Below are positions 23,061-33,463 of a stretch of 33,463 nt of DNA, one piece after another (the stretch's first letter is position 1; each line of letters starts with the position of its first letter). The notes under the pieces are model-generated. The model was given only the letters and a program-made list of their open reading frames with translations, ran no database searches and was not told the origin of the DNA. The stretch comes from a virus. Where the stretch lies: the IMG/VR virus record IMGVR_UViG_3300032296_000894, positions 1 through 33,463 of that record; one strand, written 5' to 3'. The translations under genes and the position numbers were made by a program.

Positions 23061-23396
23061 TCATCCCCTGTTCGTCGTTGATTCGTGCGGTTTACACCTA
23101 GCCTTCAACTTCGTCACGCCCGGCTCGCCCCACAGTTCCCTCACCATTCCCCGAACGTGCGGGTCGCCGTATGCCTCCGTGGCATCGTCCAGCGAACGCA
23201 GGATGTCGCCCACGTAGTTCTTCAGCCACGAGGTGCGCTCCGCACGCTGCGACCAGTCGCCTACGCCGATCCGAGCAAGGTACGCATCGGCTAACCGCAG
23301 TTTGCCAAATGGCGTGTGCTTGACGCTTTCCCAATACCGCACGTTGGCCTGTGACGCCCACGATATGTCGGTGCTATTTGTGACTGGATTATTCAT
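23061..23396 (-). CDS. Conserved-looking phage protein of unknown function
   Basis: The 111-residue product is mainly helical and polar, with W-rich segments (ISWASQANVRYWESVKHTPF), then ADAYLARIGVGDWSQRAERT, SWLKNYVGDILRSLDDATEA and a GDPHVRGMVRELWGEPG block. I do not recognise the family. It is the second gene of the leftward operon, overlapping the Cro-like gene by eight bases, with GAAGG before the ATG. The antisense and alternative frames here are weaker. Confidence 0.55.
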   Translation of the reverse strand: MNNPVTNSTDISWASQANVRYWESVKHTPFGKLRLADAYLARIGVGDWSQRAERTSWLKNYVGDILRSLDDATEAYGDPHVRGMVRELWGEPGVTKLKARCKPHESTTNRG

Positions 23397-23547
23397 TGAC
23401 CTTCAGCACGCATTGAATTTGATAGAGGCGCAACGCAGGAATCTTGTCTTCCTTGAACCAGCGCAGCACAGCCTGCCGGGTTACGCCCAACGCCCGAGCA
23501 ATCTCGCTCTGGGAACCATAAATCTTCAGTAGTTGTTTCGGTGTCAT
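23389..23547 (-). CDS. Cro-like helix-turn-helix regulator
   Basis: This 52-residue protein is a single small HTH domain: GSQSEIARALGVTRQAVLRW at about 11-30, with FKEDKIPALRLYQIQCVL after it. The SQSEIA..LGV..QAV..W pattern and the length are typical of Cro/YdaS regulators. It is the first gene of the leftward operon and faces the recombination operon across a short promoter region with an 18-base palindrome, its likely operator. The ATG has no Shine-Dalgarno and lies seven bases after a TACTGT -10 hexamer, so the mRNA may be leaderless, as known for lambda cI from PRM. Confidence 0.8.
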   Translation of the reverse strand: MTPKQLLKIYGSQSEIARALGVTRQAVLRWFKEDKIPALRLYQIQCVLKVNE

Positions 23548-23554
23548 AGATTGC

Positions 23555-23583
23555 ACAGTAACAGGTGTTGACAGTATCGTCAA
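23555..23583 (-). promoter_or_regulatory. Leftward promoter of the Cro-like operon
   Basis: TTGACG (23583-23578) and TACTGT (23560-23555) are 17 bases apart on the minus strand. The -35 lies in the right arm of the palindrome at 23567-23584. The -10 is seven bases before the ATG of the Cro-like gene. Confidence 0.65.
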
Positions 23584-23584
23584 C
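23567..23584. promoter_or_regulatory. Palindromic operator shared by two divergent promoters
   Basis: GTTGAC-AGTATC-GTCAAC is a perfect 6-6-6 inverted repeat. Each arm supplies a -35 hexamer, TTGACA for the rightward and TTGACG for the leftward promoter. A dimeric HTH protein such as the Cro-like product would block both promoters at once. That the Cro-like protein binds here is inference. Confidence 0.65.
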
Positions 23585-23595
23585 GGGAGTATACT
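23568..23595 (+). promoter_or_regulatory. Rightward early promoter of the recombination operon
   Basis: A perfect TTGACA and a TATACT are separated by 16 bases. The expected start is near 23602, giving a leader of about 27 bases to the GGAG and ATG of the first gene. It is the best sigma70-like promoter I see in the window. Confidence 0.75.
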
Positions 23596-23628
23596 GCACT
23601 TCGGGGATTGGCCCCGATGGAGAAAGCA

Positions 23629-23841
23629 ATGGAAGACGATTATCAAATCTTGGCCGAGCAGGAACGTGACCGACTCATGGAGTTGCACTGCCGCGCCGAA
23701 CACGCCGCCTTCAACGTCATCGAAGGCTTAAACGAACTCAACCGCATCGAAGCCGAAGGCGCTTTTAAACTGCACCAAGCGTTTGCCGAGTGCATCGCTG
23801 CGATTGACGCCGCATCCGCCAAACTGAGGAACCCGCAATGA
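23629..23841 (+). CDS. Small helical early protein
   Basis: I start this at the third in-frame candidate, an ATG with GGAG six bases before it; the earlier TTG and ATG lie upstream of or within that site. The 70-residue protein is acidic and almost entirely helical (DDYQILAEQERDRLMELHCR, then AEHAAFNVIEGLNELNRIEA). The first gene of an early operon is often a host-takeover or regulatory protein, but nothing here identifies a function. It overlaps the ERF gene by four bases (ATGA). Confidence 0.6.
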   Translation: MEDDYQILAEQERDRLMELHCRAEHAAFNVIEGLNELNRIEAEGAFKLHQAFAECIAAIDAASAKLRNPQ

Positions 23842-27017: not shown

Positions 27018-27052
27018 AGAATAGCAGATTAGTGGGGTTATGCAATGGATGA
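27008..27052 (+). CDS. Possible 14-residue leader peptide before the helicase
   Basis: A short frame with GGAG nine bases upstream encodes MLRENSRLVGLCNG. Its stop falls within the first codons of the helicase gene, so translation of one could couple to the other. There is no other support that it is translated. Confidence 0.25.
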   Translation: MLRENSRLVGLCNG

Positions 27053-28370
27053 ATACGAAAGTCTCGCGGATGGTGATGTATCGCAGTTGGCACCGGCTGA
27101 CTGGTTTAAACGATTCGTTTACGTTGCCGAGGGCGACCTGTTTTTCGATGTAAAGACGCATCAGGATTATTCCCGGCAGACGTTTAACGCCCTGTTTCGG
27201 GGCACGCCGTGCTACTCAGTACACAACAAGGCTAGACGCATCGAGGCGGCTACCTTCTTTGATGAGAACCGTGCGGCCATGGGTAGTTACGTCGCTAACG
27301 CCCTGACCTATGCGCCGGGTGAAACCGAGTTGCTAAAGAAAGCCGGGGTGGGCTACGTCAACAAGTGGAAGGACTCACGGCCAGCCGCACAGAGCGCGGA
27401 CGTAACGCTGTGGCTGAACCACTTGCATCGGATGATTCCTGCCGACTTTGAGCGCGAACACGTTTTGAACGTGATGGCGTACAAGCGGCAGAACCCACAG
27501 CGCAAGATCAACCACGCCGTGCTGCACACCGGGCTACCGGGTGGCGGTAAGGACACGCTCTGGGCGCCCTTCCTATGGTCTATTGGCGGCGGTTCGCTAA
27601 AGAACATAGCCGTGGCTAGGGCTGAAGAAGTCGCCGGTTCGTGGGGCTATACCTACGAGTCCGAGGTGATCGTGCTAAATGAGATTCGTTATCGAAAAGG
27701 CGATGACCGCCGAGCGATGGAAAATAACCTCAAACCCGTGATCGCTGCGCCGCCCGAGTTGCTGCTGGTCAATAAGAAACAACAGCACCCGTACTATGTG
27801 GTCAACAGGCTCTTCGTTCTGGCTTTCAGTAACGACCGAGCGCCTATCACGATCCCGGCTGACGATAGACGCTGGTTCGTGGTGTGGTCGGTAGCGCCAC
27901 GCCTACCAGACGATGAAGCCGCAAGGCTCTGGGATTGGTACGGCAAGGGCGGGTTTGAGGCTGTGGCCGGTTATCTGGATGCGCGAGACGTTAGCGCGTT
28001 CAATCCCGGAGCCGTGCCGCCATTGACCGATGCGAAATTGGCGATGGTCGATCTTGGCATGAGCGGCGGCGAGGCATTTATCTGTGACATGGTTCGGCAA
28101 CGTCGCGGAGTCTTTGCCAGAGGCGTTATAGGGTCGCCGTGGTCAGAGGTGCTGTCTGGTATTGCCGCAGGTACGGACGGCCATAAGCCCTCCAGAGAGA
28201 CGTTATTTGTGGCACTACGGGAGAGCGGCTGGAAGGACATTGGCCGAGTTATGAGCCGCGAATATCAGACCCCGAAACACCTCTGGGTGGCTCCCGAGTT
28301 GGCCGACCGTAGCAAGTCCGATATCAGGGCGATGCTTGAAGGCAAACCAGACTTGCAGATGGTGAAATAA
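27045..28370 (+). CDS. Superfamily 3 helicase (DUF5906-type replicative helicase)
   Basis: The 441-residue protein has a Walker A motif GLPGGGKDT (163-171), Walker B EVIVLNE (207-213), an FSND sensor (261-264) and DDRRWFVV with the likely Arg finger (R275/R276). Order and spacing fit the SF3/DUF5906 helicases of phage primase-helicases. The N-terminal 130 residues (FVYVAEGDLFFDVKT, then SRQTFNALFRGTPC) match the region just before the helicase in such proteins, but no primase (AEP or Toprim) motif is present, so it is the helicase part only. It is probably the replicative helicase of this phage. A GGGG site eight bases upstream serves the start. Confidence 0.82.
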   Translation: MDEYESLADGDVSQLAPADWFKRFVYVAEGDLFFDVKTHQDYSRQTFNALFRGTPCYSVHNKARRIEAATFFDENRAAMGSYVANALTYAPGETELLKKAGVGYVNKWKDSRPAAQSADVTLWLNHLHRMIPADFEREHVLNVMAYKRQNPQRKINHAVLHTGLPGGGKDTLWAPFLWSIGGGSLKNIAVARAEEVAGSWGYTYESEVIVLNEIRYRKGDDRRAMENNLKPVIAAPPELLLVNKKQQHPYYVVNRLFVLAFSNDRAPITIPADDRRWFVVWSVAPRLPDDEAARLWDWYGKGGFEAVAGYLDARDVSAFNPGAVPPLTDAKLAMVDLGMSGGEAFICDMVRQRRGVFARGVIGSPWSEVLSGIAAGTDGHKPSRETLFVALRESGWKDIGRVMSREYQTPKHLWVAPELADRSKSDIRAMLEGKPDLQMVK

Positions 28371-30945: not shown

Positions 30946-30972
30946 TTCTATGTCTCCGTGTTTGTTGTCAAC

Positions 30973-31200
30973 ATGGAGAGCCTAGAGACTTCCGTTATGG
31001 TTGTAAACAACTTTTTTACAGTCACTCTGTTAGGCAAGGCTGAAAAGGCTGAGACTGTGGATAACTTGTGGATCACTCTATTACAGGCGATTTCAGAGCA
31101 AACTAAGGGCAAGGCTAAGGGTTGCTCGATGTCGTCTGTAAAACGTTTTATGACGGTTTGGCGAAAAAGGGTTACTTACGCTGAAGTGGCTGAAAAATAA
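30973..31200 (+). CDS. Possible 75-residue basic protein
   Basis: An open frame gives MESLETSVMVVNNFFTVTLL, then GKAEKAETVDNLWITLLQAI and a basic tail (KGCSMSSVKRFMTVWRKRVT). Codon use looks coding-like, but there is no ribosome binding site, it overlaps a leftward promoter candidate, and it contains the two DnaA boxes. I list it as tentative only. Confidence 0.25.
   Translation: MESLETSVMVVNNFFTVTLLGKAEKAETVDNLWITLLQAISEQTKGKAKGCSMSSVKRFMTVWRKRVTYAEVAEK
30979..31007 (-). promoter_or_regulatory. Candidate promoter of the leftward small-gene block
   Basis: TTTACA (31007-31002) and TAGGCT (30984-30979) lie 17 bases apart on the minus strand. The expected start is near 30972, about 27 bases before the ATG at 30945. 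The -10 is a fair but not perfect match. Confidence 0.4.
31056..31075 (-). promoter_or_regulatory. Pair of DnaA boxes, 11 bases apart
   Basis: On the plus strand TGTGGATAA (31056-31064) is the exact complement of the DnaA consensus TTATCCACA, and TGTGGATCA (31067-31075) has one mismatch. The starts are 11 bases apart, about one helical turn, so DnaA could bind side by side on one face. Confidence 0.6.
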
Positions 31201-31305
31201 GGGAGATCGAGGAGTGTTAGTAAAAAAGAGAGTTTCTAGCCTGATTCGTAAAAATGTACCGTGTAGAAAACTAGTTTTAAAAAAATGACTACGTACTGAC
31301 ATTAC

Positions 31306-31443
31306 TAACAGAATCACCGCTTCTGCCTACCTTGTTGCACCTACGCAACAATGACTGTTGCATCTACGCCACAACCTAGCCATGTTGCACAAACGCAACG
31401 TGTTGCATCTACGCAACATAACGTATTGCAAACGATTCTGTTA
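31306..31443. repeat. 10-bp inverted repeat flanking the first four iterons
   Basis: TAACAGAATC (31306-31315) and GATTCTGTTA (31434-31443) are exact inverted copies that bracket the main iteron group. The distance is about 118 bases. It could be a boundary of an inserted or specially folded segment. Confidence 0.5.
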
Positions 31444-31512
31444 TGGCTAATAAGAATGATTAGCGTCTAGGGTTGTGGTACACGCACAACAGGGTGTTGT
31501 GGCAAAACAACA
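31332..31512 (+). repeat. Array of palindromic iterons (TGTTGC-N6-GCAACA)
   Basis: At least four copies share a 6-6-6 layout: TTGTTGC-ACCTAC-GCAACAA at 31332-31351, TGTTGC-ATCTAC-GCCACA at 31356-31373, TGTTGC-ACAAAC-GCAACG at 31383-31400 and TGTTGC-ATCTAC-GCAACA at 31401-31418. Two related inverted repeats follow: GTTGTG-N7-CACAAC at 31472-31490 and TGTTGT-N6-ACAACA at 31495-31512. The spacer AYCTAC is conserved in three copies, so the sites have an orientation. Possible roles are origin iterons, an operator array or a TerS packaging site. Confidence 0.75.
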
Positions 31513-31634
31513 GGGGGGGTGGGGCATGGCGTTGGCCGGTCACGATTACGATGCCCTCACAAAAACTTTTTATTTTTTTATTAACCCTCTCCACTAATAA
31601 ACCTTTTACCGTTATCCTTTATTAGCAACGTCTG

Positions 31635-31784
31635 ACCAGATGCGCTGGTAGCGACCGAGAGGTAACTGAAGGAAAGGATTCCACCATCTAAGGCACTAAA
31701 CGTCTTTCTCCCTAGACGCTTCCGCCTCGGCACACAGGCTCCACGGTTGTTGGAGATCGCGGCCTCCCGGCAGGATCACCCTGC
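31635..31784 (+). other. Cluster of four small hairpins before the terminase genes
   Basis: ACCAG-N5-CTGGT (31635-31649), CGTCT-N8-AGACG (31701-31718), CTCCA-N7-TGGAG (31739-31755) and GCAGG-N5-CCTGC (31770-31784) form a run of stem-loops within 150 bases. This may be a structured leader or noncoding RNA, or a packaging recognition site. I see no tRNA-like cloverleaf. Confidence 0.35.
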
Positions 31785-31835
31785 ACGTTGCTCTTGCTCT
31801 TCCTTCCTTGCCAAACCTTCTGTTACAGTCCGCTT

Positions 31836-32039
31836 ATGTCGATACGTATGTCGGAGTTGGAGTGGGCAGAGTTTGCTGCCAAGTCTCTGGTATGCCGCTC
31901 TTGCTTCTGGGCCGCTCAGGTGACTAAGGTTGCTGAGAAGGTCTGGTGTGCCCACGCCACCCACCACGGCTGGATGTCTGACGTTCCCGCCTGTTCTGGC
32001 AAAGAGTTCCGGTATGAACCTCGTAACAGAATCCTTTAA
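31836..32039 (+). CDS. Small Cys-rich protein, possible zinc ribbon
   Basis: The first ATG after an extended -10-like TGTTACAGT gives 67 residues. Cysteines at 20, 23, 38 and 53 (LVCRSC, KVWCAH, PACSG) form a CxxC-C-C pattern, as in small zinc-binding phage proteins that lie before terminase genes. There is no Shine-Dalgarno, and the -10 hexamer ends six bases before the ATG, so the mRNA may be leaderless. Its end overlaps the TerS start by 26 bases. Confidence 0.55.
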   Translation: MSIRMSELEWAEFAAKSLVCRSCFWAAQVTKVAEKVWCAHATHHGWMSDVPACSGKEFRYEPRNRIL

Positions 32040-32502
32040 GTCCATTCCTTTTGCGCCTCGTGAACTGAAGGCATCGCCGGAGGTTCTGGAGAAGATTTAC
32101 GACGCCGCTAAACTCGGGCTAAAGGGTGACGCCTTGGCCTTTGCGGCTGGGTTGTTGCCCGTTGAGTACCGTAGACTCTGCCAGTTAGATAACGCGGCTG
32201 CGGTCGCCGAGGGGAAAGGTCGTGCGGACTCTGAAGTTGAGGCAGCGTCGGCCTTGCGAGAAGGCGCGATTAATGGGGACACCAAAGCCGCGCTCGCCCT
32301 GCTCCAAAACCTTCATGGTTGGGTGGCTAAACAGCAAGTCCAAGTGGATATCAAATCCCAGATTAGTATTGTCGCCGCGCTGCAAGAGGCAGAATCTCGC
32401 GTCTTGGCGGGCCGCGTATTTGACGCTACACCGGATCAATTAGCGCATGAGGCTACTGAGCCGCTAACCCTGAAGGACGAACGTGCAACAGCCGATCTAT
32501 AG
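32014..32502 (+). CDS. Small terminase subunit (TerS) candidate
   Basis: I start this at the ATG with AAGAG upstream, giving 162 residues. It has a helix-turn-helix-like start (PEVLEKIYDAAKLGLKGDAL, then AFAAGLLPVEYRRLCQLDNA), a central helical hairpin (EVEAASALREGAINGDTKAA, then LALLQNLHGWVAKQQ), and a beta/helix end (VDIKSQISIVAALQEAESRV). This is the usual plan of small terminase subunits, which recognise the packaging site. It directly precedes the large subunit, which overlaps its stop by 20 bases. Confidence 0.75.
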   Translation: MNLVTESFKSIPFAPRELKASPEVLEKIYDAAKLGLKGDALAFAAGLLPVEYRRLCQLDNAAAVAEGKGRADSEVEAASALREGAINGDTKAALALLQNLHGWVAKQQVQVDIKSQISIVAALQEAESRVLAGRVFDATPDQLAHEATEPLTLKDERATADL

Positions 32503-33463
32503 CCCCGAAGAAGAAGAGTTGCTGATGAGCAAACTCTGGTCGCCCGTGATTAAGGACGACCCAGAGGCCTTCGTGCTACTCGCTTTCCCTTGGGGCCAGA
32601 AAGGCACGCCTTTAGAACACTTCAAGGGTCCGCGTAAGTGGCAGCGGGAAATCCTGCGAGATATCGCCGCACATGTTGCGAAGAACAAGACTGCCACTTC
32701 TTACGAAGTCCTGCGTATGGCTACGGCTTCGGGTCGCGGTATCGGTAAATCTGCGCTCGTGTCGTGGCTCATCCTCTGGATGCTAAGTACCCGCATAGGC
32801 TCAACGACCATTGTGTCGGCTAACTCGGAAGCGCAGTTACGCTCGATCACATGGGCAGAAATTACTAAGTGGGCAGCGCTCCTGATCAACTCGCATTGGT
32901 TTGAGATTAGCGCTACCCGCGTGATGCCCGCTAAGTGGCTTGCCGAACTCGTTGAGCGTGACCTTAAAAAAGGCACGCGCTACTGGTCCGTCGAAGGTCG
33001 CCTGTGGTCGGAAGAGAACCCCGATTCATATGCCGGTGTCCACAACTTCGACGGCGTTATGGTCATCTTCGACGAAGCCAGCGGTATCCCTGACCCCATC
33101 TGGTCGGTGACGGCAGGCTTCTTTACGGAGAACACCCCGCACCGTTTTTGGATGTCTTTTAGCAACCCCCGTCGTAACGAGGGCTACTTCTTCGAGGCGT
33201 TCCACTCTAAGCGTGCGTTCTGGAACACCCGCAACATTGACGCTCGCACCGTTGAAGAGACGGATAAGTCCGTCTACCAGCAGATCATCGACGAATACGG
33301 CATCGACTCACCGCAAGCCAAGGTGGAAGTCTATGGTGAATTTCCGTCTGAAGGAGACGATCAATTCATACCGCCAAGCCTTGTGGATTTGGCGATGTCG
33401 CGTAGCAAGTACAAGGATGAGACGGCGCCTATTGTTATTGGAGTCGATCCGGCTCGCAGCGGA
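32483..33463 (+). CDS. Large terminase subunit (TerL), 3' part outside window
   Basis: A GTG start with AAGGA five or six bases upstream begins 327 codons that run off the window. Motifs: Walker A SGRGIGKS (83-90), Walker B VMVIFDEA (192-199, D197/E198), coupling motif SFSNP (225-229) and the first nuclease motif GVDPARSG (D322). TerL hydrolyses ATP to pump DNA into the procapsid and cuts the concatemer. The nuclease domain continues beyond the window. An earlier in-frame TGA makes this GTG the only likely start. Confidence 0.9.
   Translation, partial: MQQPIYSPEEEELLMSKLWSPVIKDDPEAFVLLAFPWGQKGTPLEHFKGPRKWQREILRDIAAHVAKNKTATSYEVLRMATASGRGIGKSALVSWLILWMLSTRIGSTTIVSANSEAQLRSITWAEITKWAALLINSHWFEISATRVMPAKWLAELVERDLKKGTRYWSVEGRLWSEENPDSYAGVHNFDGVMVIFDEASGIPDPIWSVTAGFFTENTPHRFWMSFSNPRRNEGYFFEAFHSKRAFWNTRNIDARTVEETDKSVYQQIIDEYGIDSPQAKVEVYGEFPSEGDDQFIPPSLVDLAMSRSKYKDETAPIVIGVDPARSG

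Follow-up and report, generated by a model that had tools for sequence, protein, structure and literature searches.

What is the function of a cluster of palindromes in a gene-free stretch ahead of phage terminase genes? The question arises in a phage fragment that makes up an entire IMG/VR virus record (33,463 bases; hereafter the window). It comes from a relative of the P22-like podoviruses, with genes for Erf, a RecE-type exonuclease, a major head protein, a head closure protein and terminase. The first-pass annotation placed the palindromes in such a stretch, just upstream of the gene for the terminase small subunit (TerS). The gene-free stretch is present, at about 31201-31835, and the array is indeed on the upstream side of TerS. 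It is not close to it, however, as TerS begins at 32014, ~600 nt away, and the interval holds a structured RNA, which is described below, followed by a 67-aa ORF with four cysteines (31836..32039, plus strand). This ORF is conserved in relatives that carry the same type of array (type A, see below) and had no Pfam or PHROG match. TerS itself (32014..32502, plus strand) has a weak match to PHROG 309, and the gene for the large subunit (TerL, 32483..33463, plus strand) is truncated by the contig end. The best explanation for this region is that it is the head of the late (terminase) operon and is built of separable modules. Elsewhere in the window, the minus-strand segment 22131-22886 strongly matches the phage queuine tRNA-ribosyltransferase family (phrog_887, E 5.5e-61, DpdA-like), which points to a possible 7-deazaguanine modification of the phage DNA.

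The palindrome array

Four 18-bp palindromes of the form TGTTGC-N6-GCAACA had been reported, and all were confirmed, with starts at 31333, 31356, 31383 and 31401. On the plus strand they read TGTTGCACCTACGCAACA (site 1, 31333..31350, conserved in relatives), TGTTGCATCTACGCCACA (site 2, 31356..31373), TGTTGCACAAACGCAACG (site 3, 31383..31400) and TGTTGCATCTACGCAACA (site 4, 31401..31418, abutting site 3), and the core AYCTAC was likewise found in three of the four main sites. Two looser sites that had also been claimed exist on the same strand, TGTGGTACACGCACAACA (site 5, 31470..31487) and TGTTGTGGCAAAACAACA (site 6, 31495..31512, adjoining a G-run), at distances that are kept in relatives; site 5 is nearly universal among close type A relatives. 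When the 33 kb window was scanned with TGTTGCANNTACGCAACA, allowing up to 3 mismatches, 6 matches were detected against 0.41 expected, a number that none of 100 shuffles reached. One of these matches is intragenic (6555) and another is the site at 31401 on the opposite strand. A 17-base pattern search of the record returned only the four main sites. These are enclosed by an inverted pair, TAACAGAATC (31306-31315) and GATTCTGTTA (31434-31443), which together span 31306..31443. The pair is included among the copies of TTCTGTTA, which occurs 4 times in the window, always within 31306-32031 (0/100 shuffles reach four).

On the downstream side, the array is followed by a G-run (GGGGGGGTGGGG, 31513..31524, plus strand) that was found with both array types, a core motif (GGTCACGATTACGATG, 31538..31553, plus strand) with variants in the lineages inspected, and an A/T tract (CACAAAAACTTTTTATTTTTTTATTAA-like, 31558..31584, plus strand), which may be an UP-like or unwinding element and which corresponds to the AT-rich DNA that had been noticed near the array.

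Conservation and replacement of the array

Conservation in related phages, which the first-pass annotation had proposed as a check, was observed: the same array stands upstream of the terminase operon in at least 39 regions. Its presence across related phages makes the array a conserved element. The totals for the array and the RNA in the collection are lower bounds; loci overlap, some contigs are represented repeatedly, and duplicates were removed at the level of sequences rather than of phages. A palindrome scan of the collection yielded many contigs with the array, several of which have two sites exactly 68 bases apart, like the window, and most contigs oriented on the array encode the 67-aa ORF, TerS and TerL at similar distances. 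In 39 upstream regions, the number of sites varies from two to six, with dominant spacings of 18, 23, 27-29 and 94-95, i.e., both copy number and spacing turn over among relatives. The arms are strong and the core is weak and variable in the 71 distinct sites, and the array is confined to one place per genome. BLAST searches with the array and the RNA against named phages and plasmids returned nothing relevant.

The TGTTGC palindrome array is designated type A here. More distant relatives (TerS 62-71% identical) are without these palindromes; the corresponding position is occupied by 9-mers TTGCCCACA in tandem, and in other distant relatives by arrays of the 9-mers ATGACCCAA or TTGCCTAC. The type of array changes with the gene module: among loci showing a replication module, type A was associated with Erf/RecE (24 loci, and one more with both signals), and types B-D were found only with a polymerase module (20 loci). 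Array type tracks the replication module, a correlation for which shared ancestry may partly account. Judged from these comparisons, the array is a conserved and lineage-specific array, putatively for protein docking, in a family of related phages. As a separate observation, one type B phage (L187) has thirteen tandem 7-mers GACGGCT between the array and the core motif, upstream of the RNA.

Candidate roles and binding proteins

The array would be bound by a dimeric, sequence-specific protein that is encoded by, or tied to, the Erf/RecE replication-recombination module. It is most likely an iteron-like set of sites for a replication-module protein, used as an origin or an operator, and of the roles considered an initiator-binding origin array would be the most likely. 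The O-protein sites of the lambda origin are several imperfect palindromes of ~18 bp, at short spacings and near A/T-rich DNA, and the array has the same organization. Unlike the lambda origin, which is located inside the initiator gene, the array is intergenic and precedes the terminase genes; its sequence also swaps between lineages, and an initiator is only putative here. GC skew was uninformative on the origin. A pair of DnaA boxes had been reported close to the array, and two DnaA-box-like 9-mers are indeed present on the minus strand (31056..31075), one exact (TTATCCACA, 31056-31064) and one with a single mismatch (31067-31075). However, they are not conserved, with an exact box in 5 of 23 close relatives, and they lie outside the module, within a sporadic ORF (30958-31200). 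A DnaA-dependent origin was therefore rejected, and the DnaA part of the earlier reading is unsupported.

It had also been suggested that TerS binds the array, which would then be a pac site. The pac sites of SPP1 and P22 are TerS-adjacent, as is the array, and several of the relatives have overlapping ends that close them into circles, consistent with circularly permuted (headful) packaging. Unlike these pac sites, the array switches to unrelated 9-mers while the helix-turn-helix of TerS stays nearly identical; this domain does not co-vary with the array sequence across array types, and TerS is thus unlikely to be the reader. The distance of ~600 nt between the array and terS in the window also argues against a pac site, which we regard as improbable. 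A dual role in replication and packaging, also raised in the earlier reading, found no specific support. The helicase-like protein (27045-28370) was considered as another reader and rejected: its C-terminus has diverged (33% identity among phages with the same array), and this variation within type A leaves the protein unsupported as the reader. No reader was found among the candidates examined.

A different possibility is that the array serves the late promoter as an operator or enhancer with multiple sites, where a phage regulator, e.g., the P22-Cro-like protein (23389-23703), would bind and switch late transcription. The array sites end ~110 bp upstream of the predicted transcription start (see below), the two looser sites are at fixed distances from the core motif, and the Cro-like gene is present in 9 of 11 genomes with the Erf gene. 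However, the main sites are located at about -290 to -205 relative to the predicted start, no copy of an array site occurs near the promoter of the Cro-like gene itself, and this gene is missing from two genomes whose arrays are variants of type A. Sites for the late activators Ogr/Delta of P2/P4 are 18 bp long, have the form TGT-N12-ACA and lie upstream of late promoters. The palindromes of the array share this outer geometry in 18 bp, but there are 4-6 of them instead of one or two, and no match to Ogr/Delta was detected among the subset of window proteins scanned with Pfam or PHROGs. An operator or enhancer role is possible rather than probable, and an origin array read by an initiator is the role that we prefer.

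A structured RNA adjacent to the array

The array is adjoined on its downstream side by an element that was absent from the first-pass annotation. In an alignment of 29 upstream regions, a block at about 31626-31840 was at least as conserved as the adjoining genes, and a 40-mer of this block occurs exactly in at least 71 viral contigs. Its diverged copies contain compensatory changes, and covariation defines a structured RNA of ~165 nt (31625..31791, plus strand). The RNA is closed by a 7-bp helix, P1 (31625-31631/31785-31791), and contains helices P2 (31635-31639/31645-31649), P3 (31655-31659/31726-31730), P8 (31739-31742/31752-31755) and P9 (31770-31774/31780-31784), a probable pseudoknot helix P7 (31722-31725/31759-31762) and many invariant unpaired bases. 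In 27 non-redundant sequences, the 32 pairs of these six helices were paired in 98.8% of cells, and 18 of the 32 had changes on both sides. This level of pairing was reached by 0 of 500 shuffles, and slid versions paired in 32-42% of cells. RNAalifold independently recovered most of the structure, and in its fold 19 pairs had changes on both sides. Because the helices were first spotted by eye on related sequences, it is the slid and shuffled controls and the RNAalifold fold that carry weight. When the window sequence was folded thermodynamically by itself, z was about 0; energy alone therefore fails to reveal the RNA, and the evidence for it is covariation. The strand of the RNA is weakly indicated by the numbers of G.U and A.C cells (9 vs 6).

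P7, which does not vary among the 27 sequences, would make a pseudoknot with P3. In a reduced variant of the RNA (L355-L357), CAGC/GCUG replaces CCGC/GCGG in this helix; the variant, for which the alignment was read by hand, supports P7 from a single lineage only. Two other copies (L026 and L230) have insertions in the P8 loop, with the flanking helix preserved. In a further copy (L264:3038-3190), P9 and P1 resemble the T-arm and acceptor stem of tRNA (ACAGG-UUUGAAU-CCUGU, then ACACCU); loops are shorter in other copies, and tRNA mimicry is therefore just a lead.

Might the conserved block instead encode a protein, or be a cos site used in DNA packaging? In distant relatives, the DNA immediately ahead of terS is very highly conserved, and in many copies the block is overlapped by antisense ORFs. 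However, its lengths are not divisible by three, none of the frames stays open in all 90 instances, the nested helices show compensatory changes, and several relatives assemble as circles. We consider either explanation highly improbable. The 4227 covariance models of Rfam 15 gave no match at the RNA in the window or its relatives (E<=0.5-1), and no description was found among open-licence papers.

Occurrence of the RNA

With a covariance model, a single copy of the RNA was detected per genome in most relatives, and several relatives had no copy. The model also detected the RNA in phages that, a few small genes excepted, have no proteins matching those of the window's group. It precedes a different TerS/TerL pair in L264, L290 and L293, TerL in L274, and small genes ahead of TerL in L287 and L355-L359, and the RNA always shares the strand of the terminase genes. 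The terminases downstream of the RNA have differing PHROG best matches (phrog_38 vs phrog_5902/phrog_2). In two loci (L063 and L098), the array is retained together with part of the core motif, and the RNA is absent. The array and the RNA thus occur without each other and are separable modules. The RNA was absent in DSL-LC05 and ctNMl277, the two named phages whose terminases are closest, and in the terminase regions of Caulobacter, Brevundimonas, Roseobacter and two Manatee Spring phages. A search of the genome collection found no exact 40-mer, and a shorter pattern gave one chance-like match.

Possible function of the RNA and of the region

In most distinct RNA loci, only a few bases separate P1 from the end of a -10-like motif, which is preceded by an A/T tract. 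The putative -10 region of the window is GTTATCCTT (31611..31619, plus strand), with a predicted start near 31625. A consensus promoter scan detected no standard sigma-70 site, and we therefore infer the promoter from conservation only. Transcription would begin at about 31625, and the first ~165 nt of the late transcript would fold into the structured RNA and act in cis.

The RNA probably serves the late transcript as a leader that acts in cis, and its most likely role would be that of an antiterminator targeting the polymerase during elongation, by analogy with HK022 putRNA. The latter is a structured RNA in the nascent phage transcript, with putL located just downstream of PL (PMC9378689), and the window RNA is similarly structured and putatively close downstream of a promoter. 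Unlike put, which is ~70 nt long, has two stem-loops and occurs in early transcripts, RNAs of the window type are ~115-210 nt long, with six helices and a probable pseudoknot, and head the terminase operon. The window RNA did not match the two-stem, ~70-nt fold of the put type.

Alternatively, the RNA might act in trans or in packaging, as phi29 pRNA does, or be a riboswitch that responds to a ligand. It is a discrete RNA, with a 7-bp closing helix and many invariant unpaired bases, and is always near terminase genes. On the other hand, it is always on the strand of these genes, no terminator was found after it, and its presence beside unrelated terminases makes a terminase-specific partner unlikely. 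These roles appear somewhat unlikely to us. We lean slightly towards a new class of structured phage RNA, common to unrelated phages mainly via its position ahead of the terminase genes, which would act directly on a host component to influence late expression or packaging.

In the model as a whole, an iteron-like origin array would be followed by the G-run, the short core motif and the A/T tract, a promoter at ~31625 and a cis-acting antiterminator RNA; we propose this combination tentatively, as quite possible but short of probable. To our knowledge, few phage RNAs that control genes without a protein have been described. A conserved RNA that is absent from Rfam and common to unrelated packaging modules is a concrete and testable candidate, and the swapping arrays allow one to ask which protein reads them and whether they serve as an origin or as a late switch.
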